Assembly: GCA_026991575.1 (NCBI GenBank)
Contig: JALXBF010000138.1
Span: forward strand, 75,099 to 116,149
Direction: 5' to 3'
Length of the DNA stretch: 41,051 nt
Source of the DNA: Planctomycetota bacterium
GTDB taxonomy: Bacteria > Planctomycetota > Planctomycetia > JALXBF01
The notes under the pieces were generated by a model. The model saw only the letters and a program-made list of their open reading frames with translations. It was not told the DNA's origin and made no database searches. A program made the translations under genes and the position numbers. Below are positions 1,333 to 30,753 of this stretch, one piece after another. Position 1 is the stretch's first letter; each line of letters begins with the position of its first letter.

Positions 1333-2089
1333 TCCGTGTGGGGGCGCCGGCCTGCAAGCCGACCTCAAGACCGTGTCGGCTCTCGGAGCCTACGGCATGA
1401 CGGCCGTGACCGCGATCACCGTCCAGAACACCTGTCGGGTCGAGGCCGTGCATCCGCTGGCCCCGGGACTCGTGGCCGACCAGATCCGCATTTGCTGCGA
1501 GGACGTCAAACCCGATGCGGTCAAAGTCGGCATGCTTGCGACCGCCGAAGTGGTGGCCGCAGTAGCGGAAGCGTTACGTGCCCTGGATAACGTCCCCGTA
1601 GTCGTCGATCCGGTACTGAACGCAAGCGTTGGTGCGGAGCTAGCCGACGCCGCAGTTCCCGAAGCGCTGGTCGGGTGCCTCTTCCCGCTAGCCACCGTGG
1701 TCACCCCGAACGTTCCCGAGGCCGAGCGGCTGGTGGGTGTTCGCATCCAATCGGCAGCCGACGCACAAGCGGCAGCGGTGGCGCTTTACCGGAAAGGACC
1801 AAAGGCCGTGGTTGTGACAGGAGGCCACCTGACCGGCCCAGACCGGACCGACGTGCTCTACGACGGCCTGCGGCACTATGAGATCCGTGGCGAGTGGGTG
1901 CAGGGCAAGCATGACCATGGCACCGGCTGCTGCTACAGCGCGGCGTTTGCCGTCGCCCTTGCACGCGGACTGCCGCTCGTATCCGCAGCACGTTTTGCGC
2001 AGCAGTGCGTCCGCAAAGCCCTCCGCCACGGCCTAGCACTCGGCACAGGCCGCGGACCCGTAGACCCAATGGCCTGCTACGGAGACTGA
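1289..2089 (+). CDS. thiD: Hydroxymethylpyrimidine / phosphomethylpyrimidine kinase
   Basis: ThiD phosphorylates 4-amino-5-hydroxymethyl-2-methylpyrimidine twice to give the pyrimidine diphosphate used by thiamine phosphate synthase. The 266-residue protein shows the ribokinase-like features of the family: IVAGSDPCGGAGLQADLKT at the N-terminus, TAITVQNT, KVGML, VDPVLNAS (usual VDPVMVA/KS-like block), TPNVPEA and the anion-hole segment HGTGCCYSAA with the reactive cysteine. The TTG at 1289 is chosen because an AGGAGGAG Shine-Dalgarno (1277-1284) lies just upstream; a GTG at 1307 would trim six residues. The gene starts inside the phosphoesterase gene (44-bp overlap). Its 3' end faces the convergent zinc-ribbon gene with only 24 bp between stops and no visible terminator. 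No other thiamine gene is in the window. Confidence 0.93.
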   Translation: MSCRKPVILIVAGSDPCGGAGLQADLKTVSALGAYGMTAVTAITVQNTCRVEAVHPLAPGLVADQIRICCEDVKPDAVKVGMLATAEVVAAVAEALRALDNVPVVVDPVLNASVGAELADAAVPEALVGCLFPLATVVTPNVPEAERLVGVRIQSAADAQAAAVALYRKGPKAVVVTGGHLTGPDRTDVLYDGLRHYEIRGEWVQGKHDHGTGCCYSAAFAVALARGLPLVSAARFAQQCVRKALRHGLALGTGRGPVDPMACYGD

Positions 2090-2113
2090 GTGGCCGTGAC
2101 CGTGACGACGACC

Positions 2114-3988
2114 TTACTCGGGAGCACGCGGTTCGGAAGGCTTATCCTTGGGGAAGCCCGAACCGCCCGGAAATCCCGGTGCTGGCGCGGTCGAGCCCGG
2201 GAAGCCTGACGCAGCACCTCCCGGTGATGGACCGGTTCCCTGGGGGGGGCCGGGTGCAGCCTGACTCTGGCTTGCGGTCGCGGCGCGCTCAGCCGACTGC
2301 TTCATGAGCGCGACGAGTAGGCCGGAAATCGCTTCGGGGGCCAGGTCCATGCTGGCCAGCACCAGCTTGCCTTTGACGGTGATCTCCATCCCATCGATTG
2401 CCTTGCGCAGGGCCTCCAAGGCCGCAACCACGCGCGGGTCGGTGCCCTGCGATCCGTTCCCTGCCGCCTGTTCGCCGGTCGGCGCGCCGTCGGTGGCCGC
2501 CGCTGCTACCGCCTGCTGCGGCTGCCGCAGTTGGGCAAGCTGCTGCTCAAGACCGGGGATCAGCATCTTGATCGAGCCTAGCTGCAGTTGCAGTTGCCCG
2601 GCAACCGCCTCGTCCTTGCAGAACACGGCCAGCTGAAACCCAAAGATATCGGTTGCCTTTGCGGCAAGAACACCCGCTCGGATCGCGTCTGGACTTAGAG
2701 CCAGCTGAGGGCCCACGCCGCCAAGGCCTGGCATTCCGCCAGGTACGCCCTGGCCGGGGAAGACGCCGGACTGGGGCTGCGTCGCGCCGCCGGGCGAACC
2801 GCCAGGCGGGGAGCCCTGTGCGGCCGGGGCTGCGCCTGCTTGCGCCTGAGCCGGTTGGGCCTGCTGACCAGCTTGGCTGAAGAGCTTCAGCATCTCGGGA
2901 CCGAACCGGACTGCAAGCAAAAGGGTCGCTTCGCCAACGCCTTCTGCCCCGCCGAGAGCCATCAGCAGATCGTTGGGCAACGGCTGCTGGGCACGTTTTC
3001 CATTGATCAGCGCCCGGATCCATTCCTCAGAACCACTAACCAGTGTGCTCCCGTCCAAGAGCCACGTTGCCAAGGTTTGCTGCCGGAACATGGCGGCTGC
3101 CGGTCCCACAGCGGCAACGGCATCGTTTGGTACCGGCGTCGCCATCCGATAGTACGTGGTCCCGCCGTACTTAACCGCCTCCGCATTCTCCCGAACCTTC
3201 TCCTCGGGGACAGGGATGTTACTTCGGGTGGCGAGCAGCAGGATATGACCGCTGTTGCTATCGCCTGCTCCGGGTGCCCGAGCAACGGCAACAACAAAGT
3301 CTTGGATTTGGTCGGGCGGTACACCGAGTTCTTGCTGCATCTGCAGCACGAGCGTCTGCCACACGAGGCTCACCGGTGCCAGCGCCTTACGGAACGCCGT
3401 ACTCTTTAGCAGCACGGCGGGTTTGACGGCAAAGAGAAACTCCGTCTGCTCCGGTAAGTACTCGACATACCATCCGAGGGCCTTCGGGGCCAGCGGTTGG
3501 ATGGACGGTTCAGGCTGCCGCTGCGGCTGCTGCGGTGCTGGTGGCTGCGTGGCGGCACTCGCCTGGGCTGCGTGCGTAGGGACCGTCGGCTCCCCGCCGG
3601 ATTCACTCGGCCACAGCAACCAGACGGTTGTGCCAACCAGTAGCAGCAGGGCTACGCCGCCCGTTGCTAACCCGGCGTAGAGCCAAGTCCGGTTTGTAGC
3701 TCCACCTGACCGCGCCGCGCCGCGACTTGCCCGACCTTGCCGCGCGGTCGTTGCCTGCGGCAGCACCGGATGCTCAGGAGCTTGGCCGAAGATTTCCTCC
3801 AGACTCGCACTCCCCGACACCATGGCCTCGGACTCGCCGCTGGCCGACGCAGCTGCACTGGCCGGCTCGCGTGGCACGTACCTGCCGATCGTCTGGCACT
3901 TCGGGCATCGGAATTTGGTCGAACCGGAACGAAGGGGCACACGCAACTTGGCCCCGCAGCCCGGGCAGGTTACCAAGGCGGTTGACAT
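2114..3988 (-). CDS. Zinc-ribbon / single-pass membrane protein with large extracytoplasmic domain
   Basis: Not a characterised gene. The 624-residue protein begins with a CxxC-16-CxxC zinc ribbon (C8, C11, C28, C31; MJ0042-like), followed by an Ala/Ser linker with the short motif SLEEIFG (62-68), one membrane helix (about 101-126, flanked by RTW and WPSES), a Gln/Pro linker and a large domain of about 400 residues on the far side, ending in a Gly/Pro tail. The zinc ribbon should face the cytoplasm. The architecture parallels the protein at 32196-34565, which has the same ribbon, a similar LDDVFG motif and one helix. The start at 3988 is preferred over an upstream ATG at 4132 because the latter would run back into the tRNA gene; a TATAAT box at 4040-4045 fits the 3988 start. 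Function unknown. Confidence 0.85.
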   Translation of the reverse strand: MSTALVTCPGCGAKLRVPLRSGSTKFRCPKCQTIGRYVPREPASAAASASGESEAMVSGSASLEEIFGQAPEHPVLPQATTARQGRASRGAARSGGATNRTWLYAGLATGGVALLLLVGTTVWLLWPSESGGEPTVPTHAAQASAATQPPAPQQPQRQPEPSIQPLAPKALGWYVEYLPEQTEFLFAVKPAVLLKSTAFRKALAPVSLVWQTLVLQMQQELGVPPDQIQDFVVAVARAPGAGDSNSGHILLLATRSNIPVPEEKVRENAEAVKYGGTTYYRMATPVPNDAVAAVGPAAAMFRQQTLATWLLDGSTLVSGSEEWIRALINGKRAQQPLPNDLLMALGGAEGVGEATLLLAVRFGPEMLKLFSQAGQQAQPAQAQAGAAPAAQGSPPGGSPGGATQPQSGVFPGQGVPGGMPGLGGVGPQLALSPDAIRAGVLAAKATDIFGFQLAVFCKDEAVAGQLQLQLGSIKMLIPGLEQQLAQLRQPQQAVAAAATDGAPTGEQAAGNGSQGTDPRVVAALEALRKAIDGMEITVKGKLVLASMDLAPEAISGLLVALMKQSAERAATASQSQAAPGPPQGTGPSPGGAASGFPGSTAPAPGFPGGSGFPKDKPSEPRAPE

Positions 3989-10027: not shown

Positions 10028-11413
10028 ATGGCCACAAGAAACTGCCCACGGTGTGACAACCCGCTGCCGCAGTCGGCACTGAAGCCGGGCCAGCGCTTCC
10101 GCTGCCCGAAGTGCCGCGCGCGGTTGCGAGTCAAGGCTCGCCGTGGGGCCAGTACCCAATCGGTCAGCGCAACCAGCGACGGTGGCAGCGTGGAGCGGAA
10201 TGGTTCCCCTGTTGCGCCATCGGCGGCCGACACGAGTGAGGTTGCCGAGGCCAGTCGTAGCACAACGGGCCCGGTGCCTGAGCCAATGCGCCGGTTGCCC
10301 AAGGTAGGGCCCTATCGGCTCATCGCCGAACTTGGCCGCGGTGGTATGGGCGTGGTATACAAGGCGTACCATGAGCCCACGGGGGAGATCCGCGCGCTGA
10401 AGGTGTTGCGGGGCGAAGCGGCCCGCAGCAAGAAGGTGATCGCTCGCTTCGAGCGTGAGGCTGCCGCCGCCAGCTCGATTCGACACCCCCACATCGTGCG
10501 CGTTTACGAGTTTGCGCGGGATCCAGCACGGAAGTGCTACTACATGGCCATGGAATACCTCGAGGGAGGTTCCGTGTCGAAACTGATTCGGAGCCATGGC
10601 AGGATCCCGTGGCCGCGAGTTGTTCAGATTGCCAAGCAGGTCGCCAGCGCCCTGGAAGAACTGCAACGCCGTGGCCTGGTCCACCGCGACGTGAAGCCCT
10701 CCAACCTGCTGCTCGACAAGCACGGCAACGTGAAGCTGGCCGACATGGGCCTAGTGCGCCACGAGGCTGGCGAAGAGGACCATCAGCTGACCACCACCGG
10801 TGCCGTCATGGGCACGCTCGACTACATGGCGCCCGAGCAGATCGTTGACCCGCGTAACACCGACATCCGGTCGGATCTCTACGCCTTAGGTTGTACCCTA
10901 TTCCACATGCTCACAGGCCAGCCCCCCTTTCCGGAGGGGAATGCCTACCAGAAGATTCAGCAACACCTGTCGCATCCTCTACCGGAAATCGGCCCGCTCG
11001 TGCCCGACGTGGCCTCCCCCCTGGCACTCATCCTCAACCGACTTACCGCTAAGGATCCGGCCGAGCGGTTCCAGACCCCCGCTCAATTGATCGCTGCCCT
11101 GGAGACGCTCGAAAAGGAAATGCGCCTTGATCCAAGCAGCGGATCGGTAGCTGTGCCTGAGGAGCTTCGCAACGTGGTCGCACAGGCAGCCGAACAGCCG
11201 ACTGCTGCGCAACGCAGGCAGCGGTGGCGCGACTACGTCGTGCCCTGCCTGATCACCGCCGTCATCGCCCTCGCTGCACTTGCCATTCTCGCGGTCGTCT
11301 CTGGCGGCCAACACGGCACCGGCGACGGGGGGGCCAAGCAGAACAGCACGCCGCCGACGCCCGAACCGACGCACCACGAGGTGCGGTTGCCCAGGGCACC
11401 GTTCAGCCGCTAG
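10028..11413 (+). CDS. Membrane-anchored Ser/Thr protein kinase with N-terminal zinc ribbon
   Basis: Hanks-type kinase of 461 residues. Order: zinc ribbon C6-C9-C26-C29, a Ser/Thr-rich linker, kinase domain about 95-360, one membrane helix about 404-426, and a short polar tail outside. Visible kinase elements: glycine loop GRGGMG (103-108), ATP lysine K125 in ALKV, helix-C glutamate E144, HRDVKPSN (219-226) and the APE triplet (268-270) after GTLDYM. The usual DFG is DMG (239-241); the metal-binding aspartate is kept, and bacterial kinases often vary the middle residue, so it should be active. HRD arginine suggests activation-loop phosphorylation; the loop contains TTT before GAVMGT. No PASTA, WD40 or TPR sensor is present outside, so the zinc ribbon may be the input module. 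The 3' end overlaps the convergent 39-residue gene by 4 bases. Confidence 0.93.
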   Translation: MATRNCPRCDNPLPQSALKPGQRFRCPKCRARLRVKARRGASTQSVSATSDGGSVERNGSPVAPSAADTSEVAEASRSTTGPVPEPMRRLPKVGPYRLIAELGRGGMGVVYKAYHEPTGEIRALKVLRGEAARSKKVIARFEREAAAASSIRHPHIVRVYEFARDPARKCYYMAMEYLEGGSVSKLIRSHGRIPWPRVVQIAKQVASALEELQRRGLVHRDVKPSNLLLDKHGNVKLADMGLVRHEAGEEDHQLTTTGAVMGTLDYMAPEQIVDPRNTDIRSDLYALGCTLFHMLTGQPPFPEGNAYQKIQQHLSHPLPEIGPLVPDVASPLALILNRLTAKDPAERFQTPAQLIAALETLEKEMRLDPSSGSVAVPEELRNVVAQAAEQPTAAQRRQRWRDYVVPCLITAVIALAALAILAVVSGGQHGTGDGGAKQNSTPPTPEPTHHEVRLPRAPFSR

Positions 11414-11529
11414 CGGGTATCGTCCAGGATCCAGCGAACCACCCAGACAATGATCAGAACTACCAGCAGCAGGCCCCAGGTGAGGAAGGCCAAATGTCGC
11501 GGCTTCAGGCTTAACGCCAACAGCTCCAT
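11410..11529 (-). CDS. 39-residue single-pass membrane peptide downstream of copA
   Basis: A small frame not obvious from length cutoffs. It encodes MELLALSLKP, then a polar RH pair, then a strongly hydrophobic helix (about 13-34, ending WVVRWILDDTR). The ATG at 11529 has AGGAG five bases upstream, which is the main support. It lies 54 bases after the copA stop, in the same reading frame, and shares that operon. In size and topology it recalls small accessory peptides such as CcoS or other copper/oxidase-associated membrane peptides, but I see no sequence signature that proves this. It could also be a longer two-helix product if translation began at an upstream TTG at 11562, which has no Shine-Dalgarno. 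Its stop overlaps the convergent kinase stop. Confidence 0.5.
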   Translation of the reverse strand: MELLALSLKPRHLAFLTWGLLLVVLIIVWVVRWILDDTR

Positions 11530-11583
11530 CACTGCTCCTGCCGTCACAGCCAGCCCGAGCAACGCGGCGTTTCGCTGCTGCAG

Positions 11584-13803
11584 TTACCGTACCCGCCTCA
11601 GCCGCAGCGCATTGCTGACGACCGTCACCGAGCTCAGTGCCATGGCAAGTCCTGCCAAAGCCACCGGAACGTAGCCGAACGCAGCTCCCGGGATGAGCAA
11701 CGCGTTGTACGCGAACGCCCAGAACAGGTTCTGAGCGATGATCCGCCGTGCTTTTCGAATCAATCGGAAGCAGGCAAGCACCGGCTCCAGCCCGCGTTTC
11801 AGGACGACCACATCACCCGCTTCCCGCGCAATGTCCGACGCCTCCGCCACAGCTACGCCGACGTCGGCTGCAGCAAGGGCCGGAGCGTCATTAATACCGT
11901 CACCCACCACCGCCAACTGGCGTCCTTCCTTCCGCAAGGATTCGACCCAGGCCGCCTTCTCGTTCGGGGTCATGCCACCACGAGCGTGGTCCTCAGCGAT
12001 GCCAAGCTGCCGAGCAACCTGGCGTACGACCTCAGGGCGATCCCCCGAAGCAATGTAGAGCTCGTAGCCCATCCGCCGGAGTTGCTCGACGGCGCGCGGC
12101 GCCTCGGGGCGCAGCGGATCTTCGAGCAAGAATACCGCCAGCGGCTCCCCATCCAACGCCAGCCAGACCTCCGTGAGCCCGCTGGGCGCTGCGGCGAACG
12201 ATGGCGCCGCGCGGTCGCGGAGCACGAAGGCCCGGCTGCCGAGCTTCACCAGCCGGCCGCCAACCCTCGCCGAGACCCCCTTGCCCGGAAAGTTGATCAG
12301 ATGCTCGGCGCCCGCAGCGTTCGGCTCGACACCCCGCCGGCGGGCGTACGCCACGATGGCCGACGCCAGCGGATGGTTCGCTGCTGCCGCGACAGCCGCC
12401 GCCGACGCAAGCAGCGTGGCCTCGTCCCCCGCCGCGCGCATCTCAACAACCTGCGGCCGCCCCACCGTCAGTGTGCCGGTCTTGTCCAGCACGATGGCCC
12501 GCACGGCGCGCTCCAGCACCGACGGATTCCGTAGCAGGATGCCTAGCTCTGCGCCACGACCGGCGGCTACCTGTACCGCCACCGGTGTTGCCAGCCCCAG
12601 CGCACATGGGCACGCAACCAATAACACGGACCCGGCTGCCAGCAGAGCACGTTCCCAACCGGCAGACCCGACGATCAGGTGCCCGGCCAACGCAGTCAAC
12701 GCGATCGCTAATGTCACCGGTACGAAAATGCCGCTGATGCGATCGGCCATCCGCTCAATCTGGCTCTTGCGCGTCAGCGCTTCCTCAACGGTCTGGGCCA
12801 CTTGATAGATAACCGTCTCGGCACCCACTCGTCGCGTGCGGACGACGATGGCGCCGTCCACGTTCACCGTGCCGGCCAGCACCTGCGAGCCCGGCGCCAC
12901 GGCACGTGGTACCGGCTCCCCGGTAAGCAAAGCCTCCTGGACAGTCGACTGCCCCTCGACTACCTCGCCGTCCACCGGCACCTGTTCGCCCGGTCGGACC
13001 AGCACAAGGTCCCCCGGCTGGAGTTCGAACACCGACACCTCATGTGTCCGACGCCCTTCGTCGAGCCGCAGGGCCGTTTGCGGTGTCAGTTGCAGCAGGT
13101 GCTCGACCGCCTCGCCGGCCCGCAGCGTGGCACGGGCCTCTAGCCAGCGGCCGAAGGCAATCACCGTCAGCAGCAGGCACTGCTCGACAAGGTGTCCCAG
13201 CCCGGCCGGGATGGCTGCATTGCTCAGCATGAACCGGACCGCATGCCAGCTTCCCACGGCAAAGGCCACGCTGGTGCCCAGCGCTACCAGCGTGTCCATG
13301 TTCGCGCGGCGGCGGCGGAGCTGCGCGAACGCACCGCGATAGAACGGCAGCGCAACGTACGCCTGGGCAACTGCCGCGCACGTCAGTGCGAGCGCTACAG
13401 GCCAGATCCCGGTAACGAAGAAACGGCTGGCTACCAAGCACCCGACCACGACAGCCAACAGGGCTGCACCAGTGACGGTGCGCCGCGACCAGGTGCCGGC
13501 CTCCCTGAGGAGCGCGTCCCGGGCGCTGCGGCGCAGTCCATCCGCCACTCGTGCCCGATAGCCAGCTGCCTCCACGGCTCGCACCAACGCCTCGGCAGCC
13601 ACTGGCTTCTGCAGCCGCACGTTCGCCGCACGCGCTGCCAGACTGACGGTAACGTCTTCCACCCCCGGCACATCCCGCAGTGCCCGTTCAATGCGAGCCA
13701 CGCAGCTTGCGCAGTGCATCCCTTCGACGGCTAGGTGCACTTCACGCTCGGCTACCACCGCGGCTGAGTCGGTTTCGTGCCCGTGGCTGGATGTGTCACG
13801 CAT
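11584..13803 (-). CDS. copA: Cu(+)/Ag(+) exporting P1B-type ATPase
   Basis: Heavy-metal P-type ATPase of 739 residues. One N-terminal metal-binding domain with GMHCASC (C31, C34) follows a His-containing leader (HGHE). Then come the membrane helices, TGEP actuator motif, CPC in helix 6 (ACPCALGLATP), DKTGT phosphorylation site, the HP dipeptide (ANHPLASA) and GDGINDAPAL. Helix 7 contains YN and helix 8 reads MALSSVTVVSN, giving the MxxSS pattern; CPC plus YN plus MxxSS define the Cu(+) P1B-1 group. It pumps cytosolic copper outward. The ATG at 13803 is chosen because GGAG lies 8 bases upstream and the copper domain follows at the usual distance; the longer frame to 13911 adds an Arg-rich non-conserved stretch. 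No CsoR or CueR gene is next to it. Confidence 0.93.
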   Translation of the reverse strand: MRDTSSHGHETDSAAVVAEREVHLAVEGMHCASCVARIERALRDVPGVEDVTVSLAARAANVRLQKPVAAEALVRAVEAAGYRARVADGLRRSARDALLREAGTWSRRTVTGAALLAVVVGCLVASRFFVTGIWPVALALTCAAVAQAYVALPFYRGAFAQLRRRRANMDTLVALGTSVAFAVGSWHAVRFMLSNAAIPAGLGHLVEQCLLLTVIAFGRWLEARATLRAGEAVEHLLQLTPQTALRLDEGRRTHEVSVFELQPGDLVLVRPGEQVPVDGEVVEGQSTVQEALLTGEPVPRAVAPGSQVLAGTVNVDGAIVVRTRRVGAETVIYQVAQTVEEALTRKSQIERMADRISGIFVPVTLAIALTALAGHLIVGSAGWERALLAAGSVLLVACPCALGLATPVAVQVAAGRGAELGILLRNPSVLERAVRAIVLDKTGTLTVGRPQVVEMRAAGDEATLLASAAAVAAAANHPLASAIVAYARRRGVEPNAAGAEHLINFPGKGVSARVGGRLVKLGSRAFVLRDRAAPSFAAAPSGLTEVWLALDGEPLAVFLLEDPLRPEAPRAVEQLRRMGYELYIASGDRPEVVRQVARQLGIAEDHARGGMTPNEKAAWVESLRKEGRQLAVVGDGINDAPALAAADVGVAVAEASDIAREAGDVVVLKRGLEPVLACFRLIRKARRIIAQNLFWAFAYNALLIPGAAFGYVPVALAGLAMALSSVTVVSNALRLRRVR

Positions 13804-17905: not shown

Positions 17906-18934
17906 CTAAGCCGACGCTCTCAGTTGTTCGGCTGCCTGAGGCGCACCGTAGTCGCGTGGGGCCTGTATCGGACGCGGCAACGACGTGGCATCGCGCAGTA
18001 GGGCCTCGTCCAGGAAGGCGTCGCCCCCATCGCGCCGTTTCGCGCGCGCGCATCGACGCACCGCCTCCAGCCACGCCCGCAGCGTCGGCCATTGGCCGAC
18101 GACCAGAGCTGCGGTGAGTCGTAGCGCGGTGCAGGGGACGTAGCGGCACCAGAAGAGACGGCCGCAGGCATTGCGCAGCATGAACAGATGCGCGTTCCTG
18201 ATGGTCAGGTACTGGAGCTGTCCCCGGTGGTACGCTGCCCGGAATGCCTCGCTGCCGCCGTGATGCACTACGGCGCGCGGCTCGAATAGCGTCGGCCAGC
18301 CCCGCGCCCGCGCTGCCAGGCACAACTCCAGATCTTCATACCGACCTGGAAAGTAGGCGTCACGGTAACCGGACAGAGCCAGGAAGCGGTCCCGCCGGAC
18401 GGCGAGCACAACGCCGGAGGAAACCGTTTCCACAGGTGCATGTTGCAACGGTGGCACCGTGTGCTCGGTTCCCACCAGACCCCACCGAGGACGCAACCGC
18501 GAGCAGCAGCCTTCGTATTCACCGGTCGCCGCGGTGCGCACCAGTGGCCCTACGGCGAAGGCGTCCTGGTGACGAGCCAACGTGCTGACCAGGTGGACGA
18601 AAGCCGTCTGCTCCGGCGCGACGTCGTTATTGCACAGGATCAAGACCGGCTGCGGTACAGAACGAGCTACCGACGCAAAAGAGGCAAGCCCTCGGTTCGG
18701 CCCACGCCATAGGCCTACTCGTGGGTAGCGGCGGGCGAGCCAGTCCGCTGCGGCCGATTCAACTGAGTTATCGACAACCGATACGACGGCCTGTCCTGGG
18801 CCGAGTCGGTCGGCAGCACGCACGACAGCGGGCAGGTAGCGATGCAGCAGTCGTGTGCCACCGTAGTTCAGCACGAGCACGTGGCAGTGCTCATTGCCGC
18901 GGTCTGTTCGGCGTAACCATCGGCCTTGTGCCAT
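17906..18934 (-). CDS. GT2-family glycosyltransferase
   Basis: GT-A fold glycosyltransferase of family 2 (rhamnosyltransferase/WcaE-like subgroup), 342 residues, cytoplasmic. Visible elements: HVLVLNYGG at the start of the Rossmann half, VVDNSVES, NRGLASFASVA, the metal-site equivalent LILCNNDVAP (NND 102-104), SSGVVLAVRR, and the acceptor region FPGRYEDLELCLAARARGWP with GGSEAF after it. Many members make linkage-specific transfers onto lipid-linked sugars. The frame runs upstream to 19717 but that part lies antisense-free inside the previous gene and has no GT features; the ATG at 18934 has GAGG five bases upstream and overlaps the previous gene by 67 bases. Last gene of the four-gene operon. 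Donor sugar and acceptor cannot be told from sequence. Confidence 0.88.
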   Translation of the reverse strand: MAQGRWLRRTDRGNEHCHVLVLNYGGTRLLHRYLPAVVRAADRLGPGQAVVSVVDNSVESAAADWLARRYPRVGLWRGPNRGLASFASVARSVPQPVLILCNNDVAPEQTAFVHLVSTLARHQDAFAVGPLVRTAATGEYEGCCSRLRPRWGLVGTEHTVPPLQHAPVETVSSGVVLAVRRDRFLALSGYRDAYFPGRYEDLELCLAARARGWPTLFEPRAVVHHGGSEAFRAAYHRGQLQYLTIRNAHLFMLRNACGRLFWCRYVPCTALRLTAALVVGQWPTLRAWLEAVRRCARAKRRDGGDAFLDEALLRDATSLPRPIQAPRDYGAPQAAEQLRASA

Positions 18935-21426
18935 CGTTGCCTCATCGCTGCGGCTACTGTCAGTGCCGCCAGAATCGCACCGTTTGCCGAAAGGAACATC
19001 GCGTCGTTGAACAGCAGAGCCAGATGGTAGTTCCACGCAGCGGTGCCGTAAATGGCGAAGGCCGACGCGTTCACCAGGAGCCGCACGGAAACCAGCGTAA
19101 AGAGCCCGGCGAACGGTGCTCGTCCCGGGTGGCCGTGTACCACTGCGCCGGCCAGCGCGCCTGCCGTGACAAGCACAACCACGTAGCGGGTCCACACGGC
19201 CACTGCCGCAAGCAGCATCGAGAACTGCTGATCTGCCAGTTCGACCCCGACGGCGCCGCGGTACAGCGTGTTGATGGGCAGGAACGTGTCGCGGCCGTCG
19301 GAAAAGTGAAACAGGTGAACGGCCAGCAGGGCAGCCAGGATCGTCCCGGTAGCTGTGGTCGTGTCGAGCGTGAGGCTGCCGGGGTCTGTGGCACGAATCC
19401 GGCAGCGGGATAGCCACACCAGACTGCCGAAGATAACCCATTGTTGGGGACACGGCAGCGCCAGGAGCGCGGCCGCGTGCAGCGTAGCCAGTGGCAGGCC
19501 CCCGCCAGCCAGTTCGGCCACGCACAGTGGGCCGAGGCCAACCCATGCGATACGAGCGGCCATCGGATCCACGAAGCGTCCGATGCCGGCCAGAGCCATG
19601 ATCGCGATGCCACCGGCGGCAATCACCGCGCGGCGGTCTCGCGCCAGCTGCACCGCGATGGCCGTGCCAACGGCCAGTGCGCCCAGGGCCGTTGCAGCGG
19701 TTACCACCTCCTGCCACGGCGGGGCCAACGGTTCGTAGGAGAGCTTCTGCCCAACGGTTGCAATGGCTGCCAGCGCGGCAAGGGCACCGGCCTGACGGAT
19801 CGACAGCCTACCGGGTGGGAACCGGGAGTGCCATCGAAGCAAGCTCGACCGCACCGACTGGGCAACCAGGCAACCAGCGGCCCAGTAAAGCAGCAGGTCG
19901 TTGCGTGTCCGCAGCGGGGCAGTGGCCGCGGCAACCCCTGTGGCCACTGCGCCGGGGCGTACCGTGCTCGATCGCCTTGGCCATGCTAACGCTGCCGCCA
20001 GGCACACAACAAACAGGCCGGCGGCGCGAAGCGGATGGCTTCGCCAGGTGGCAAAGCGGAAGGTGGGTAGTGCATCTGCAGCAGCGAATCCATCCACACG
20101 TCCCACCGGTGGTAGGATCCGCTCGAGCGCCACCAGCGCAACGCCGGCACTGAGGGCCAGCAGGACGGAGCGCGGCGATGAGAGGCCAACCGTCCGCACA
20201 TGCCAGCAGCTTAGCGCCACGCCGCACAGAAGCCACAGAACCCATCCGACCCGTGCCCAAAGGCGGGCACGCGCTTCAAGATCATGCAGCAGGGCGGCAA
20301 CGTCGTGGCTATTGGCTGGCGGGAGCGTGCGGCGCTGGCCACGAGCTGCGATGCGTGCAAGCGGGGGGCAGCCTGCGCGTCTGAGGCGAGCTACGTAGAC
20401 GGACAGCAGCTCGCGGCCTCGCTCCGCTGCCGTGCCGGCCAACAGTGCCATGCTCGGCTTACCCGCGTATCCGCCTGGCAAGGGGATATCCAGCCACGCG
20501 GCCATCAGGAAGGGCCAGGCAGACTGCGCGATGCGAACGGACGCTGCCGGTGCGATTGGTACAGGGCCAGCCACGGCGAACGGAGCCCAGCACACCTCGG
20601 GGGGACCGTCGCTGGAATGGCCCCCATCGTCGCGCACGCCATGGTCCGATACCAGGACGGTCAGCGTCTGGGGCAAGCAGAGTTGTAGGAGGTGCGCCAG
20701 TTGTTGGTCTACCGCGGCCGCCGCCGCCACGTACTCTCGGCTTCTGGCGCCGTGGCGATGGGCGATGGCATCGAGTGTAGCCAGGTGGACGACGACGACA
20801 CGTGCCTGCGCCGCCGGCCGCTCCAGCAGGGCTGCTGCTGCGGCTACCGCGCGACGATCGTGCTCGGGGATCCGCGCCATGTCATCCAGCACCCAGACGT
20901 AGGCTGGCCTGGTGACGTCGTGGAGCCATGCGTGGCCGGACGCGGGTCCGGCAAACCACTTGGCCCCCGGCAGCGCATCCAGCCAGGTCTCCAGCGCTCG
21001 TGGTTTGGGGGAAAGGTCGTTGTAGACGTCCCAGAGCGTTGCTGGTCTGCCCGCGAAGAAAGCCTTGTAAAAGGAAGCGCTCACTGGGAATGGCCCAGTC
21101 CGGTGCCAACCGGCGCCGCCCCTGCTCGCGACCTCGTTCCAGGTCGGCATAATGCACCGATCACGGGCGATGTCGGCGCGGAGCGCATCGACGATGAAGA
21201 CCACCAGGCGCTGAACCGTACGCCAGTGATCTCGGTGGCGACGTGTGTGCTCGGCAGACGAAGGTGCCGGTGGTGCTGATGCCCGAGGAACAGGATCCGG
21301 TGAGGCAAGCCGCACGAACAGGCTTGCCCCCGCCGCAAGCCAGACCAGGGTAAGCACAGGCACCAGTGCGTCGTGCACCTTCGGCCAGGCAGCTGACTGT
21401 AGCTCGCGGCGGCGTGCCATGCTCAT
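18868..21426 (-). CDS. GPI ethanolamine-phosphate transferase-like (PIG-O type) membrane phosphotransferase
   Basis: 852 residues. One N-terminal helix (about 21-41), an extracytoplasmic alkaline-phosphatase-superfamily domain (about 70-330), then about ten or more membrane helices to the end. This is the architecture of eukaryotic PIG-O/PIG-G/Mcd4. The key sites correspond in order: FIVDALRAD (D80); GPFPVSASFYKAFFAG, equivalent to the Thr-rich nucleophile region of PIG-O, with S116 or S118 as candidate nucleophile; HLATLDAIAHRHG (D219, H223); and VSDHGVRDDGGHSSD (D261, H262, H270). All expected metal ligands are present. The family moves phosphoethanolamine from phosphatidylethanolamine to a glycolipid. 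The ATG at 21426 overlaps the stop of the preceding gene (ATGA), implying coupled translation. True donor and acceptor are unknown; a phosphodiesterase is the main alternative. Confidence 0.8.
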   Translation of the reverse strand: MSMARRRELQSAAWPKVHDALVPVLTLVWLAAGASLFVRLASPDPVPRASAPPAPSSAEHTRRHRDHWRTVQRLVVFIVDALRADIARDRCIMPTWNEVASRGGAGWHRTGPFPVSASFYKAFFAGRPATLWDVYNDLSPKPRALETWLDALPGAKWFAGPASGHAWLHDVTRPAYVWVLDDMARIPEHDRRAVAAAAALLERPAAQARVVVVHLATLDAIAHRHGARSREYVAAAAAVDQQLAHLLQLCLPQTLTVLVSDHGVRDDGGHSSDGPPEVCWAPFAVAGPVPIAPAASVRIAQSAWPFLMAAWLDIPLPGGYAGKPSMALLAGTAAERGRELLSVYVARLRRAGCPPLARIAARGQRRTLPPANSHDVAALLHDLEARARLWARVGWVLWLLCGVALSCWHVRTVGLSSPRSVLLALSAGVALVALERILPPVGRVDGFAAADALPTFRFATWRSHPLRAAGLFVVCLAAALAWPRRSSTVRPGAVATGVAAATAPLRTRNDLLLYWAAGCLVAQSVRSSLLRWHSRFPPGRLSIRQAGALAALAAIATVGQKLSYEPLAPPWQEVVTAATALGALAVGTAIAVQLARDRRAVIAAGGIAIMALAGIGRFVDPMAARIAWVGLGPLCVAELAGGGLPLATLHAAALLALPCPQQWVIFGSLVWLSRCRIRATDPGSLTLDTTTATGTILAALLAVHLFHFSDGRDTFLPINTLYRGAVGVELADQQFSMLLAAVAVWTRYVVVLVTAGALAGAVVHGHPGRAPFAGLFTLVSVRLLVNASAFAIYGTAAWNYHLALLFNDAMFLSANGAILAALTVAAAMRQRWHKADGYAEQTAAMSTATCSC

Positions 21427-22307
21427 GCCGTCTGACCCCCTGGGTCCACCGCCTGGCACTCGCGCTCGACATGCCCACCACGTGCCCAGCGCAACAGCCT
21501 GGCGCCGCGCGTTATCGGGACGGCGATCGCAAGGGCCAGTAGCCAGCACGTACGAACTGTGCCAAACAGCGGTGGGCACAGCAGCCAGACGCCAGCCACG
21601 GCGGCCAACTGAGGCAACAGGTTTGGTACTTCTGTGATCCACAGCAGCCGTCGTGCCATGCGGCCGGCCGGTTCAGACCGTGACGACATCTGCCTCGATC
21701 GACTCCATGACTGTCTGCTGCCGGTCCTGTGGTAGAGAAATGCCTTGGCCACGGCTGCGCCGTGAGCTTCCGCCAGGAGGCCGCCGAGAAAAAGGGCCGT
21801 CGAGCTAGCCATGGCCACCGGGCCGAACAACCGGGCCAGAGCACCGTGCAGCGATTCGGCCAGGGCCCACCAGAGGGCCACGTGGACGACGAAATGCATG
21901 AGAAAATCGAGGTACGCACCAGTCAGAGACGCTTGCCCGGTGACGCGGGCCACCTGGCCGTCCACGTGGTCCAGCCAGTACCACACCCACAGCAGCAGCA
22001 CACCCAATGAGAAGCTCCATCCACTGCCGTTGGCGATGAAGGGCGCTGCGGCCAACCCAACGACGGCGGCGATCAACGTCACAACTGCCGGAGGTACCCC
22101 TAGCCGGCACAGCAGCCAGCTCAGCGGCAGTGCAGCGGGACGAGCGAACCAGCGTGCCAGGGGATAGCCAATCGACGGATCCTGCGGTTTGTAGGCACGC
22201 TGGCGGAACCGACGCCAACGCTGAAGGCCTGGCATCGGGCGGCGCCGCCGACGGGCGAACGTCTTTGTGGATCGCATGCCGTGTGCTGTCGTTCCTGGCG
22301 ACGCCAT
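21423..22307 (-). CDS. CDP-alcohol phosphatidyltransferase family protein with altered signature
   Basis: 294 residues with an Arg-rich cytosolic N-terminus and about six membrane helices. The family joins a CDP-activated lipid or alcohol to an alcohol acceptor. The signature D-x2-DG-x2-AR-x8-G-x3-D-x3-D appears with exact spacing (D113, D116-G117, A120-R121, G130, D134) except that the fourth aspartate, regarded as the catalytic base, is H138. A preceding RPAALPLSWLLCRLGVPPAVVT is the usual amphipathic and first-helix region. The ATG at 22307 is chosen because it begins 9 bases after the flippase stop; ATG 22277 is the alternative. The larger frame to 22838 is antisense-like noise inside the flippase gene. 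Coupled by ATGA overlap to the phosphotransferase gene, so it may make that enzyme's donor or acceptor lipid. Confidence 0.85.
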   Translation of the reverse strand: MASPGTTAHGMRSTKTFARRRRRPMPGLQRWRRFRQRAYKPQDPSIGYPLARWFARPAALPLSWLLCRLGVPPAVVTLIAAVVGLAAAPFIANGSGWSFSLGVLLLWVWYWLDHVDGQVARVTGQASLTGAYLDFLMHFVVHVALWWALAESLHGALARLFGPVAMASSTALFLGGLLAEAHGAAVAKAFLYHRTGSRQSWSRSRQMSSRSEPAGRMARRLLWITEVPNLLPQLAAVAGVWLLCPPLFGTVRTCWLLALAIAVPITRGARLLRWARGGHVERECQAVDPGGQTA

Positions 22308-22315
22308 CTGAGGCA

Positions 22316-23863
22316 CTACTCCCGCTCGGCTGCCTGGGTCGCCATCGAAGAGGCACGCCCTGGGCCGAGCCCGGGCTGCCGGGGCTGGCTGTACCAGACC
22401 CACAACAGCGTCACGCCCGGGGGCATGGACGCAATCGTGGCGCCGGTCACAACGTGCCACCAGCTGAAGCCGGCCAGCCAGCTGAGGGCCGCTAGCACAG
22501 CCGCGGCGTACAGGATCGCCAGCACCAGAGCGGCGAAGCTCGGCAGCAGGCGTCGTCTGGACCAAGTCGTGGCGACGCCTAAGAGCAGGCCGGCAGCCAG
22601 CGAGCTGAGTGCTGCCGCCCACCCGATGGCCGGCAGGGAGCCGGGCAGAAGCCGCAAGGCTGCGAAGGTGCCGGATGCGCCAGCGATCGCAGCGAACGCA
22701 TACGCGGCACACATGCGCCAGGAATGGCCCAGCGTGACCAGTGCGTGGCGCAAGGGCAGCGTTCCCCCAACGATGGTTGCTGCCGCAAGGGCCCCCCAGA
22801 CAGCCTCCAGCCCGACGCGGTATCGGGGCAAGAGCCACGCCGTCAGCGGGACACCGACCACTGCTGCTCCCGCCGCGATCGGAACCAAGAGCATCGTCAG
22901 CAGCGTTGCCCCGCGGAGGCCGAGCTCCAGCACCTGATCCGTGTCATTGGTCTCGGCCAGACGGATGCCCATCCGAGGGAAGAGGACGTTCGAAACCAGG
23001 TTCGCCTGGTCGAAGACGCGGCTGGCAATCAACAGCGACGTGGTGTACAGTCCCAGCAGTACTTCCCCATCCGCTGCGCACAGAATGACCATGGCACGCT
23101 CCGCGGAGCGGACGGCCATCAGGGCCAGTGCTCCGGCCGCCAGCGGCGCCCCCTGGCGCACCAGCCTGGCAGCTGTCTGACGGTGCCAGCGTGGCCAGAG
23201 GCTCAACCGTCGCGCCCGTAGCACAAACGTCAGGTTCGCGATCTCGGCCGCAATCGCGCCTGCCAGCAGTCCCACCAGGCCAAAGGCGACCGCACCGCCG
23301 GCCAGAAGGAACAACTCCAGCACCGCTCCGACGATCCGGGACCAGGCCGGCACGGTGAAGTCGAGCGAGGAACGGAGCGTGGTCAGGGCAAGCGTCAGGG
23401 CACGCCGTACGAACAGAAGCACGGCCGTGGCCACGAAGGCCAGTGCCCAATCTGGGCGACCGCGTAGTTGGCTGACCGCCGCAGCAACCAACAGCAGCAC
23501 ACTGACCACGCTGGCGGCCGCAACCTCAATGGCCATGGTGGTGTGCACGGTACGCTCTGCTCGGGTGCGATCGCCGCCGCCGGTCGCCACCGCAATCTCC
23601 ACCGCAGCGGCACGGGCAGCGCCCAGATCGGCGAAGCCCGCATAGTCCAGCACCAGGCGCACCGCCGACCAGATTCCCACCAACCCGGGGGTCAACGTGT
23701 GGCGTACGACATAGCTGGTAACGACGCCCAGGGCCGTCGCCACGTGGGAACTGGTCAGCACGGTCCAGCAATCCCGCAGAAAGCTGCGCCGAGCCGGGCG
23801 AGCGCTGCTGCTCGGTCCGCTCTCCGGCGCGCGTTGTGACGGCTGCTGCAAAGTGGCACTCAC
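22316..23863 (-). CDS. Wzx-like lipid-linked polysaccharide flippase (MOP superfamily)
   Basis: 515 residues with roughly 12-14 hydrophobic segments and the look of the polysaccharide-exporter branch of the MOP superfamily: N-terminal SFLRDCWTVLTSSHVATALGV, GIWSAVRLVLDYAGFADLG in the first repeat, then VRQGAPLAAGALALMAVRSAERAMVIL and LYTTSLLIASRVFDQANLVSNVLFPRM in the second. These transporters move undecaprenyl-linked glycans across the inner membrane. The GTG at 23863 is the only start near the first helix; Shine-Dalgarno is weak (TAGG). First gene of the operon, read from the promoter at 23907-23935. No Wzy or Wzz gene is in the window, which argues for export of a short unit rather than a polymer. 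Substrate unknown. Confidence 0.82.
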   Translation of the reverse strand: MSATLQQPSQRAPESGPSSSARPARRSFLRDCWTVLTSSHVATALGVVTSYVVRHTLTPGLVGIWSAVRLVLDYAGFADLGAARAAAVEIAVATGGGDRTRAERTVHTTMAIEVAAASVVSVLLLVAAAVSQLRGRPDWALAFVATAVLLFVRRALTLALTTLRSSLDFTVPAWSRIVGAVLELFLLAGGAVAFGLVGLLAGAIAAEIANLTFVLRARRLSLWPRWHRQTAARLVRQGAPLAAGALALMAVRSAERAMVILCAADGEVLLGLYTTSLLIASRVFDQANLVSNVLFPRMGIRLAETNDTDQVLELGLRGATLLTMLLVPIAAGAAVVGVPLTAWLLPRYRVGLEAVWGALAAATIVGGTLPLRHALVTLGHSWRMCAAYAFAAIAGASGTFAALRLLPGSLPAIGWAAALSSLAAGLLLGVATTWSRRRLLPSFAALVLAILYAAAVLAALSWLAGFSWWHVVTGATIASMPPGVTLLWVWYSQPRQPGLGPGRASSMATQAAERE

Positions 23864-23906
23864 GGAAACCTACGTCTGTCTTCCAAGACCACGCCCTCTC
23901 CGCCCT

Positions 23907-23935
23907 ATCTCACCGCCTTCGAATCATCCCGTCAA
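23907..23935 (-). promoter_or_regulatory. Putative promoter of the flippase-led operon
   Basis: Minus strand TTGACG (23930-23935), 17-base spacer, TGAGAT (23907-23912), about 40 bases before the GTG. Strong -35, weak -10. A TTCGAA palindrome lies in the spacer. It faces away from the promoter at 23967-23995. Confidence 0.45.
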
Positions 23936-23966
23936 CTTCGATCGTTCGCTGCGGCGTAAGCCAGCA

Positions 23967-23995
23967 TTGGCACCGAACAGAGGACCTGCTCTAAT
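23967..23995 (+). promoter_or_regulatory. Putative sigma70-type promoter of the YfhO-like gene
   Basis: TTGGCA (23967-23972), exactly 17 bases, TCTAAT (23990-23995), followed by GG. Both hexamers are 5/6 to consensus, making this the best promoter in the window by eye. Leader about 65 bases to the GTG at 24067. Confidence 0.6.
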
Positions 23996-24066
23996 GGACA
24001 GGCTGTCGGCTGAGATGCCACCCGCTCTAAGCACAAACCGCCCACCGAGCACGGGGGAACGCAGCG

Positions 24067-26547
24067 GTGTCGACCACGCCGGGCCTCGGCCACGGTGGCC
24101 TGGGGAGTTCCACAAGCGAACTGTTCCTGCAAGCATGTAGCGGTCGGCTCCGCGCAGCGGCGACCTTCCTCGGGCCATGGCTGCCGGTGGTGGTGGCCGC
24201 TGCCGTTGCCATGGCGCTACTGTCGCCGGCTCTGTTCTGCGGCTATGTGCTGAGCCCGGCGGATGTGATCCTGGTTGGCGAGGGGTTTATCGGACCGACC
24301 CACGAGCCGGCCAACCGGCTGCTGACCGACGTGGCGTTCGCCTTCGAGCCATGGCTGATCGAGGCCCGGCGTCAGCTCCGCGTCGGGCAATGGCCCTGGC
24401 TCAATCCCTACGCAGGGCTCGGTGCCCCCCTATTCGGAAACCTCCAGTCTGCTCTGCTGTGCCCGTTCAACTGGCCGTTCCTGCTGACCGGCAGCCCGCG
24501 AGCGTTCGCGTGGCAAGCGCTTGCGAAGCTGCTCTGCGCCGCCGCGGGGGTCGTGCTCCTGAGCCGACATCTAGCGTTGGGTCGCTCGGCCCAGACGCTA
24601 GCCGCCGTCTGCTACATGCTGGGCGGCTTCATGAGCTGTTGGCTGCTCTACCCGCTTGCCTCGTCGGCTGCCTGGTTCCCGTGGCTGTGCTGGTCCCTAC
24701 TTGGACTGGTACGACGGCCCAGCACCCGTCAAGTGGCAATCGTCGCTGTAACGGTGGCGCTGGCGTGGCTCGGGGGACACCCTGAGACTGTCATGCACAG
24801 CGTCCTCGGCGCAGCCCTGTTTGCGGTCATGGCGTTCCGGCCCCTGCGGCCGCGCACCGCGACGATCGCCGCTGTGAGTGCCGTGTTGCTGGGCACTGCT
24901 GTCGCCGCCGTCCAACTGGTGCCGTTCTTCAGTTACTTGAGCGTGAGCAATGTCTGGGAGCGTGGCTCGGCCACGGGTCGAACGCAGCCTGCCAGACGGC
25001 TGATGATCAGCGCAGCCTCAACGGTCTGTATGCTCGTGCCGTTTGCCTACGGGAGCTACGGCAGGAGAGACGCTCACGTCGAAAAGGCACTGGGATTGGA
25101 GAACTTCAACGAAATCGCTTCCGGCTACTGTGGCGTCCTCATTCCGGCGTTAGCCCTTCTTGCCGTGCTCGGTCGCAACCGGGCGCCACGCTGGGTGCGG
25201 GCGGCCGGCATGCTGGCGGTGCTTGGTTGGTTGGTGGGGTACCGATGGTTTCCCTTTTACGATGCGTTGCATCTTGTGCCTGGTGTTGCGCACGTGCAAC
25301 ACCAACGTCTGCTTCTGTGGCCGACGCTCTTCGCCCCACTGGTGGCTGCGTATGGTCTGCATCAACTTTCGACGGTGACGACTTACCACCGCCCGATCAG
25401 GGTCGTGACGCTGGCCTATGCGGTGCTTTGCACGACGCTAGCTCTCGGCGCTGTGGCGGTCGTCGCTGCCGGGCCGAGGCTCTACGCACATGCCCGTGAG
25501 CATTACGAGAACCTTGTCCGGCAGGGACTGCTGGACAGGCACACCGCACGGCTGAGGCTTGAGCAGCAGGGGAGGCGAGCCCCGCGGGCGCTTGCTGCTC
25601 ACTACCTGCATGCGTCCGCCCTGATGGCACTGGCCGTGAACGTGCTGTGGGCGAGCAGCGCTGCGGCGTCTACGGACGGCAAGAAGCGTTGGGTTCGGAA
25701 ACTAGGCCTGGGACCGTTGTGGCTGCTAGTGGTCATCGACCTGGCCAGCTTCAGTCTGAAGCAGTGGCCGTTCATACGCCCCGGTCAGTGGTTCCCGCCT
25801 CCGGCAGCTTCGCTTTCGGATGCCAGCCCCTTGGACCGCACGCTGTTCCTCCAGGACGTGATGCCCCCGAATGCAGCGACAGTTTACGGTGTCAGTGATC
25901 CGCGACTGTATGACGGCATGGAACATGCTGGGCTGGATCGGCTGTTTCGCTGCCTTGATCCGGCATCGGCCGGTACGGCCGACGTGCGCGGCCAGCAGCT
26001 GCTGCGGCGGCACGACTGGCGGCACAAGCTGCTGGCGGTCCTGGGCGTGAAGTGGATCGTGGCGCGCAGCCCGGCGGAGACGGCACCTTGTCTGAGGCGG
26101 GCTGGCTCGTTTGGCCGGGCCACGGTCTGGCAACTTGCCTGCCAACGTGATACCGGGCTATGGCTGCTGCCCCCCGCAAAGCGCGAGCCGCAGACCGAGC
26201 TTGACTGGCCAGAACTCGTACAACAGCTACGGCCACTGGACGTGGCGGAGCTGCACTGGGTGTCGGCCAACAAGCTTGTGGCCCACTTGGCCCCACAGGC
26301 CGGCGGTATTCCTGAGGGGACCGTTGTTCTGGGCATGTTGTGGCTTCCGGGCTGGCAGGCGCGGGCCGGCGGTGTAGCCGCGGAGTTGAGACCCGTGGCC
26401 GGTACCCTGATCGGCGTAGAAGTTACTCCGGGCACGCAGCAGCTTGAGCTCTCGTATCGGCCTCCCGGTCTGGGCCTGGCAGCAGCCGTGACGCTACTGG
26501 GCTTGGCCGCCTCGTGCGCGCTGTTTCGTTACGATAGGCAACTCTGA
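24067..26547 (+). CDS. YfhO-like multi-pass membrane protein (GT-C-type)
   Basis: 826 residues with about 12-13 membrane helices and a large C-terminal extracytoplasmic part. The N-terminal loop has the features of the YfhO / GT-C group: LLTDVAFAFEPWLIEARRQLRVGQWPWLNPYAGLGAPLFGNLQSALLCPFNWPF is summarised here as an acidic residue (LLTD) before a WPWLNPYxGxGxP block. Further on come GGFMSCWLLYP, SSAAWFPW and LAWLGGHPETVMH. The C-terminal region (PRLYDGMEHAG, VKWIVARSPAE, LWLLPPA) is the beta-rich domain seen in YfhO proteins. Firmicute YfhO adds sugars to lipoteichoic acid using a polyprenyl-phosphate sugar made by a GT2 partner. Divergent from the flippase operon, which contains a GT2. The GTG at 24067 lacks a good Shine-Dalgarno; later starts would cut the first helix. 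Confidence 0.75.
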   Translation: MSTTPGLGHGGLGSSTSELFLQACSGRLRAAATFLGPWLPVVVAAAVAMALLSPALFCGYVLSPADVILVGEGFIGPTHEPANRLLTDVAFAFEPWLIEARRQLRVGQWPWLNPYAGLGAPLFGNLQSALLCPFNWPFLLTGSPRAFAWQALAKLLCAAAGVVLLSRHLALGRSAQTLAAVCYMLGGFMSCWLLYPLASSAAWFPWLCWSLLGLVRRPSTRQVAIVAVTVALAWLGGHPETVMHSVLGAALFAVMAFRPLRPRTATIAAVSAVLLGTAVAAVQLVPFFSYLSVSNVWERGSATGRTQPARRLMISAASTVCMLVPFAYGSYGRRDAHVEKALGLENFNEIASGYCGVLIPALALLAVLGRNRAPRWVRAAGMLAVLGWLVGYRWFPFYDALHLVPGVAHVQHQRLLLWPTLFAPLVAAYGLHQLSTVTTYHRPIRVVTLAYAVLCTTLALGAVAVVAAGPRLYAHAREHYENLVRQGLLDRHTARLRLEQQGRRAPRALAAHYLHASALMALAVNVLWASSAAASTDGKKRWVRKLGLGPLWLLVVIDLASFSLKQWPFIRPGQWFPPPAASLSDASPLDRTLFLQDVMPPNAATVYGVSDPRLYDGMEHAGLDRLFRCLDPASAGTADVRGQQLLRRHDWRHKLLAVLGVKWIVARSPAETAPCLRRAGSFGRATVWQLACQRDTGLWLLPPAKREPQTELDWPELVQQLRPLDVAELHWVSANKLVAHLAPQAGGIPEGTVVLGMLWLPGWQARAGGVAAELRPVAGTLIGVEVTPGTQQLELSYRPPGLGLAAAVTLLGLAASCALFRYDRQL

Positions 26548-29750: not shown

Positions 29751-30476
29751 TCACTCCAGCCATGCCCGCAACTCATACCACAGCGCCCCGATCAGCTCAT
29801 GTGCCAGCCACTCATTGCGTCGAATCGTGGTGCCGTCCGGCAGGAGTTCGTGCCACAGAGGGGATGCCGTGACGAAGTCGCACGCCGCAGGGATGACGCT
29901 CAAGCCTTGCCTGCGGAACGCGCGCGCCGCACGCGGCATATGGTAGACCTGAGTTACCAGGACAATCCGGTGCCACCCTCGCTCTTTCAGCAGTCTGGCC
30001 GAAAAGCGCGCGTTCTGCCACGTGTTCCGCGCCCGCCGCTCAAGAACGATACGGTCGCGCGGCACACCCAGGGCCATCAGCAGATCTGCCATTACCTCTG
30101 CTTCGCCACCACCACCGGTCACCACCACCGGCCTGCCGCGCAGTGTCGCATACAGCCGGGCAGCATGGAGGCAGCGCAGATACGTCTTGTGGCTGGCTTG
30201 CAGTTTCCGCGGCTGGTGCGGCTCCCCCGAGTAGACGCCGCCCCCCAGCACAACGATCGCCTGCGCAGTTGCTGCCTCAGCCGGGAGCGGTTCGTAGAGG
30301 CGCTCAATGGGCCAGACCGCCAGCCAATGCACCGGCGGAAGGGACCAGAGCAGGATGCCGATCACGCCGGCGACAGCCAGACGCATCGCACGCCTGTTAC
30401 CGCGACGGAGCCCGAACCAGGCCCCCAACAAAGCCACGACCAGCAGCGCCGGAAAGACTGGCTGGGTGTAAGTCAA
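29751..30476 (-). CDS. YdcF/ElyC/SanA-like DUF218 membrane protein
   Basis: About 241 residues. Two N-terminal membrane helices (FPALLVVALLGAWFGL and LAVAGVIGILLWSLPPVHWLAV) precede a DUF218 domain with AIVVLGGGVY, the loop PVVVTGGGGEAEVMADLLMALGVPRDRIVLERRARNTWQNA given here as TGGG..EA.VM...L...GVP...I..E..A.NT..NA, and IVLVTQVYHMPRA. ElyC and SanA members affect envelope integrity and undecaprenyl-phosphate use; the exact reaction is unknown. The TTG at 30476 is chosen because GGGGAG lies nine bases upstream and the first helix then starts at residue 9. The frame extends to an ATG at 30608, but that stretch is Arg-rich without a ribosome site. Upstream, 30477-30753 holds no gene I can support. 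Confidence 0.8.
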   Translation of the reverse strand: MTYTQPVFPALLVVALLGAWFGLRRGNRRAMRLAVAGVIGILLWSLPPVHWLAVWPIERLYEPLPAEAATAQAIVVLGGGVYSGEPHQPRKLQASHKTYLRCLHAARLYATLRGRPVVVTGGGGEAEVMADLLMALGVPRDRIVLERRARNTWQNARFSARLLKERGWHRIVLVTQVYHMPRAARAFRRQGLSVIPAACDFVTASPLWHELLPDGTTIRRNEWLAHELIGALWYELRAWLE

Positions 30477-30753
30477 GCGTACACTCTCCCCAGATGTTAC
30501 CGATGCAGGGTGAAACCCACGCTGCCGCCACACGCACGGCCATCGAACCGACACGCGTCGCGCTCGGGCAAGGGTACGTTTGTATGCCTCCGGCCTTGGC
30601 ACGGCCATGCCACCGGCTCGAGGCGAGAGTGCGGGGCTGCATTACGGGCCCGCCGGTGAGCCGGAACGGAGCACCACCTGCGCTACGTCCCGCCGGAAGT
30701 GGTCATCGAGGGCGGCTTCCCGCCGGAACGGCGCCGCCTACGCCATAACCGGA

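Follow-up and report, generated by a model that had tools for sequence, protein, structure and literature searches.

Gene content of the cassette

A 41,051-nucleotide stretch of a Planctomycetota genome (a 4.96-Mb assembly, sole representative of its order in our sample) was analysed and is called here the window. It contains a cassette of four minus-strand genes, encoding a Wzx-type lipid flippase, a CDP-alcohol phosphotransferase (CDP-AT), a PIG-O-like membrane protein and a GT2 glycosyltransferase (GT), and a divergent gene encoding a multi-pass YfhO-like protein (Table 1). The five open reading frames put forward by an earlier sequence-only reading of this DNA were all found in place and on the proposed strands, and its spacings of +8, -4 and -67 bases and the 203-bp divergent gap were reproduced with early start codons. 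The 67-base overlap between the PIG-O-like and GT2 genes depends on an early ATG. A later GT2 start is favoured because the orthologues begin at the first strand (MRVAILILNYNG...), which fits a GTG at 18880 of the window; the true start is probably this GTG, with an overlap of about 13 bases. A single promoter may serve all four minus-strand genes, as had been suggested; a promoter scan found no sigma-70-like site, a result that proves nothing in this phylum.

Table 1 Genes and intergenic region of the cassette, in window coordinates
Feature	Position	Strand	Basis
Wzx/polysaccharide-type lipid flippase, 515 aa, first in the minus-strand run	22316..23863	-	PF13440 (Polysacc_synt_3), 5.1e-11, 42.8 bits (cut-off 23)
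His-type CDP-AT, 294 aa	21423..22307	-	PF01066 (CDP-OH_P_transf), 4e-5, 24.6 bits (cut-off 22)
PIG-O-like membrane protein, 852 aa	18868..21426	-	PF01663 (Phosphodiest), 8.7e-9, above cut-off
GT2 glycosyltransferase, 342 aa from the early ATG	17906..18934	-	PF13641 (Glyco_tranf_2_3), 5e-9, above cut-off
Divergent multi-pass YfhO-like protein, 826 aa, possible GT-C	24067..26547	+	PF09586, 22.7 bits, below cut-off (28.5)
Divergent intergenic region, 203 bp	23864..24066	.	Gene coordinates; no sigma-70-like site found

A subfamily of CDP-alcohol phosphotransferases with His at the fourth Asp position

The window CDP-AT belongs to class I of the CDP-alcohol phosphotransferases, both by its Pfam match and by the fold (CDP-AP fold) of its AlphaFold2 (AF2) model, which had a mean predicted local distance difference test (pLDDT) score of 87.4. 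The best fold matches of the model were AF2299 (Z 17.2, root-mean-square deviation 3.6 over 226 residues), IPCT-DIPPS (Z 15.4) and the phosphatidylinositol phosphate (PIP) synthases (Z 14.8), and comparison with the eukaryotic CHPT1 and CEPT1 gave Z 13.4 and 11.1. AF2299, Archaeoglobus fulgidus IPCT-DIPPS and the mycobacterial PIP synthase PgsA1 have the fold, the D1xxD2G..AR motif and D3 in common with the window enzyme, and the spacing of D68/D71/D89/D93 in PgsA1 is identical to that of 113/116/134/138 in the window. These three enzymes carry a fourth Asp (D4) as base, whereas the window motif reads D113-x2-D116-G-x2-A-R...D134-x3-H138, so that the complete signature D1xxD2G..AR..G..D3xxxD4 is broken at its last position. 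His occupies the D4 position in the window enzyme and in 42 of 42 aligned subfamily rows, and the third motif position is Asp or Glu in every row of the 42-relative alignment. We class the window CDP-AT as a member of a distinct non-canonical, His-type subfamily of this fold family.

A single-sequence CDP-AT scan of the genome contigs gave no match, and later profile searches did. The profile search detected the subfamily in 22 of 392 sampled genomes of the phylum, where an E-value gap (1e-30 to 7e-22) separates it from the next CDP-ATs; in the class it was detected in about 48 genomes among the 398 sampled. The His type requires one or two changes on the tree, compared with 17.9 for shuffled labels, and the window enzyme branches off first within the class clade (support 90/80). 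In the open-access literature that we searched, neither a His-type CDP-AT nor this planctomycete operon is described.

The literature describes D4 as the catalytic base of CDP-alcohol phosphotransferases. In Mycobacterium tuberculosis PgsA1, D93 (D4) is the presumed catalytic base (PMC4634129, PMC6506517), and a D93N PIP synthase is almost inactive (PMC4634129). In eukaryotic CHPT1 the base that serves the lipid acceptor is a His working with an acidic partner (His133/Glu129; PMC10182977). By analogy we infer that H138 may play a base role similar to that of the CHPT1 His; its possible partner is E226, a position that is acidic (Glu or Asp) in 41 of 42 His-type rows. CHPT1 and CEPT1 thus have in common with our proposal both the CDP-AP fold and an active-site His paired with an acidic residue, but the CHPT1 His sits at D3+1 with D4 kept, whereas in the His-type subfamily His replaces D4.

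Conserved gene order around His-type CDP-ATs

The neighbourhoods of 41 loci with a His-type CDP-AT, other than the window, were compared. Wzx homologues lie in the same-strand cluster at about 20 of the 41, and Wzx is the immediate upstream same-strand neighbour in 11 (L060, L075, L077, L079, L083, L094-L097, L123 and L126); at L078 it adjoins the CDP-AT on the opposite strand. Throughout family f95 (16/16; L090 and L108-L122) a PMT-like GT-C gene stands immediately upstream of the CDP-AT, and Wzx precedes it in nine of the 16, giving the order Wzx-GT-C-CDP-AT. At L123-L126, which represent four other families of the class, the gene next after the His-type CDP-AT is an orthologue of the window GT2, and after that come an Asp-type CDP-AT, another GT2, a deacetylase-like protein, GT4, GT9 and a PMT-like GT-C. 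The Wzx-CDP-AT(-GT2) order recurs in other families and is therefore not due to chance. Another contig of the window genome, C152, carries together GT2, GT4, GT9 and PMT-like GT-C genes matching the rest of the L123 operon. Since the counterparts of these remaining glycosyltransferases cluster there, the comparison of gene content shows the window to hold one half of a conserved operon split over two contigs.

These results bear out the core of the sequence-only reading, an envelope glycoconjugate pathway that combines a CDP-AT, a flippase and a GT2: this part is conserved across the related loci. Its wider claim, that all five genes form one unit, is not supported for the PIG-O-like gene (0/41 loci) or for the YfhO-like gene, whose order is not kept. 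The family assignments, the fold, the conservation of the His and the synteny are direct results of the analysis. The loci resemble Wzx/Wzy-type O-antigen and lipopolysaccharide (LPS)-core loci in bringing Wzx together with GT2, GT4, GT9 and PMT-like GT-C genes, but unlike those loci they are centred on a His-type CDP-AT, and no polymerase was identified. At L061 the genes for the His-type CDP-AT and a MobA-like nucleotidyltransferase share 4 bp, an arrangement consistent with a soluble CDP-alcohol as donor.

Further observations were made at these loci. The second CDP-AT with an ordinary Asp at position 4 (L123:7419-8261 and L125:7774-8568) means that both chemistries coexist in one locus. 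A NodU-family carbamoyltransferase gene adjoins or lies near the Wzx/His-type CDP-AT pair at L060, L081, L082, L083, L092, L095, L096 and L097, an assignment made by Pfam for the L083 copy and by the start of the sequence for the others. A conserved soluble protein of about 600 aa is encoded upstream of the glycan operon (L123:12229-14127, L124:10385-12901, L125:10669-12666 and L126:11782-13551); its L123 copy had no Pfam match, and motifs picked out by eye (HPR and S-S-x-G-I-E-A) hint at a protein of the GT-B or capsule/phosphotransferase kind.

The PIG-O-like protein, a probable lineage-specific addition

The PIG-O-like protein consists of an N-terminal transmembrane (TM) segment, a catalytic domain of the alkaline phosphatase (AlkP) superfamily and about 9-10 C-terminal TM segments. 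Alignment predicts D80, S116 (the nucleophile), D219, H223, D261, H262 and H270 as the AlkP ligands, with S116 standing where relatives have Thr; a full metal-ligand set is thus fused to a multi-pass C-terminal half, as in the transferases of the glycosylphosphatidylinositol (GPI) pathway. On a tree of AlkP domains the protein groups with membrane-fused AlkPs, apart from plain phosphodiesterases (90/89), in keeping with the earlier expectation. Its sister is a 659-aa protein of genome G454 (90/84), whose gene lies in an unrelated region about 4.8 Mb from that genome's own His-type CDP-AT. The other close architectural relatives are confined to one family, f61 (12/17 sampled genomes of its class). 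They adjoin unrelated genes (UvrA/LOG) without the cassette, and were dropped as a guide to it. The alignment of the window C-terminal half with f61 is mainly compositional (bias 54 bits), and homology of this half with f61 is not claimed. Two adjacent genes for PIG-O-like membrane-fused AlkPs, an apparent tandem duplication, were seen in genome G162 (L053:9174-15101).

The protein shares with PIG-O, PIG-N and PIG-G (Mcd4, Gpi13 and Gpi7) the N-terminal TM segment, an extracytoplasmic AlkP domain and many C-terminal TM segments. It differs from them in that Ser occupies the nucleophile position, no GPI pathway surrounds its gene and a match to PF19316 (PIGO_PIGG) is lacking. No protein of its own genome matched PF19316 at E<=10, a search in which the controls also went unmatched, so that absence is not provable, and the isolated C-terminal halves of the window and f61 proteins gave no match either. 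Of the name 'PIG-O-like' the architecture therefore stands, and the C-terminal Pfam family does not. Because no member matches PF19316, we do not file the protein as PIG-O, and a PIG-O-like mode of action is only a possibility. One C-terminal motif resembles PIG-O, which we take as a lead only.

The gene is absent from 41 of the 41 comparable loci, and its distribution suggests a sporadic, lineage-specific local add-on, probably not the heart of the system. It might even be an unrelated insertion into a glycan operon, encoding a periplasmic phosphodiesterase or phosphatase that works elsewhere. In agreement with such an insertion, the relatives lie beside UvrA and other unrelated genes or in the unrelated G454 region, and the closest solved sequences are plain phosphodiesterases. 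However, the gene is on the same strand as its neighbours, and its overlaps, of 4 bp with the CDP-AT gene and a further one with GT2, imply that these genes are transcribed together and coupled in translation; a soluble phosphodiesterase would also not have this membrane-fused form with its complete ligand set. We consider an unrelated insertion unlikely.

Inositol and a GPI-like pathway

The architecture of the PIG-O-like protein also fits a true GPI-like pathway, in which the CDP-AT would make phosphatidylinositol or its phosphate, GT2 would add a sugar, Wzx would flip the product and the PIG-O-like protein would add phosphoethanolamine. Inositol-type enzymes are the best NCBIfam and PDB matches of the CDP-AT, a myo-inositol-1-phosphate synthase is encoded in the window genome, and the other two CDP-ATs of this genome have ordinary motifs, neither of them assigned to inositol. 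Yet the CDP-AT scored far below all NCBIfam equivalog cut-offs for PIP and di-myo-inositol-phosphate-phosphate (DIPP) synthases (43.4 vs 180, 38.7 vs 170 and 25.5 vs 580 bits). PIP synthases bind inositol phosphate through basic residues, and the one directly after D4 is always Lys or Arg (PMC6506517), whereas position 139 is Phe, His, Met or Leu across the His-type rows. The only Arg/Lys columns kept in at least 75% of rows were R35 and the motif R121, with no equivalent of R155/R195, in what is a sequence alignment and not a structural superposition. Inositol phosphate as the acceptor was set aside, the basic residues that bind it in PIP synthases not being conserved. In addition, the PIG-O-like protein lacks a PIGO_PIGG match, His-type CDP-ATs elsewhere never adjoin an AlkP gene, and the inositol phosphate synthase (Ino1) gene is on another contig. 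The GPI-like link drawn by the sequence-only reading is weak on this evidence, and the GPI interpretation, a minority reading, is not supported; we regard it as very unlikely.

The Ino1 gene lies on C152 of the window genome (G000), a few kilobases downstream of the operon half with GT9 and GT-C, and is followed by TIM-barrel (AP_endonuc_2) and UbiA prenyltransferase genes, an ebo-like group (L151:8800-10056 and 11123-12984). In genome G020 an apparent Ino1-type gene is close to a canonical Asp-type CDP-AT (L084:3-1157 and 1995-3080), making this a candidate inositol-lipid locus.

The YfhO-like gene and a teichoic-like polymer

The YfhO-like protein stayed below the PF09586 cut-off and matched this family over its C-terminal 49 residues only. 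Among the related loci a single match to it was found, weak and distant (4e-4), at L095, several kilobases from the CDP-AT. With no conserved association found, the gene is placed outside the system on present evidence. Hydropathy shows no TM segment in the window GT2, which is a soluble enzyme of the Glyco_tranf_2_3 family and not of the membrane-anchored CsbB/GtrB type that makes undecaprenyl-phosphate (C55-P) sugar. The analogy drawn earlier with lipoteichoic acid glycosylation by CsbB-YfhO of Bacillus subtilis accordingly breaks down: a GT2 and a YfhO-like multi-pass protein are close together in both, but in the window the latter is below cut-off and on the opposite strand and the GT2 is soluble (compare PMC5836110).

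The same results bear on a teichoic-like polyol-phosphate polymer that, as in Firmicutes, would be produced and glycosylated extracellularly. The joint presence of a CDP-AT, a flippase and a YfhO-like protein agrees with such a polymer, as do the motifs of the 600-aa protein of the related operons, which by eye are like those of GT-B/capsule or glycerophosphotransferase enzymes. Against this, no LtaS or TagF domain was found by Pfam in the cassette, conservation of the neighbourhood does not extend to the YfhO-like gene, the GT2 differs from the type that makes C55-P-sugar, and the companions GT9, GT4 and PMT are those of oligosaccharide or LPS-core assembly. A teichoic-like polymer is accordingly judged improbable.

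The cassette is flanked by genes for a 3-keto-disaccharide hydrolase and a lactate-permease-like transporter (Pfam), which look unrelated to it. Downstream of the YfhO-like gene, at a distance of a few kilobases, lies a DUF218/ElyC-like envelope biogenesis gene (window 29751-30608).

A proposed phospho-glycolipid pathway

We put at even chances the reading that the minus-strand genes belong to a pathway, conserved in Planctomycetota, that makes a surface glycan anchored to lipid and bearing phosphate, of the phospho-glycolipid or LPS/oligosaccharide type. The substrates, the order of steps and the roles of H138 and of the PIG-O-like protein are our proposals. GT2 and the other cytoplasmic GTs would assemble a short glycan on a lipid, and the His-type CDP-AT would transfer a phospho-alcohol from a soluble CDP-alcohol to a hydroxyl of the (glyco)lipid, with H138 as base, perhaps together with E226. 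Wzx would flip the product of the CDP-AT. The last step would be peculiar to this lineage: the PIG-O-like enzyme, whose catalytic domain would lie outside the membrane, might add or exchange a phospho-head group such as phosphoethanolamine, which it would draw from a phospholipid via a Ser116-bound intermediate. The YfhO-like protein, if it belongs here at all, may serve as an additional GT-C for this or a different polymer.

Several points weigh against this pathway. The cassette contains no cytidylyltransferase. The His at D4 could mean that normal CDP-AP chemistry has been lost; the clade support of the window CDP-AT is only moderate, and the enzyme shares no more than 33-35% identity with its nearest relative. 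Comparison of the loci lends no support to the PIG-O-like step, since no AlkP gene lies near the other His-type CDP-ATs, and the AF2 model of the PIG-O-like protein, built from a 6-row alignment, had a pLDDT of 43. The most specific form of the proposal, a Planctomycetota phospho-glycolipid that depends on a new catalytic class of CDP-AT with His for the fourth Asp and is finished outside the cell in this lineage by a bacterial counterpart of the GPI phosphoethanolamine transferases, is advanced as a tentative and rather doubtful possibility.

A subfamily with an invariant His, found phylum-wide and linked with a flippase and glycosyltransferases, would mean that CDP-AT chemistry has been solved in a second way, and would hint at a Planctomycetota envelope lipid yet to be discovered. 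The membrane-fused AlkP relatives provide bacterial models of the PIG-O-like architecture.

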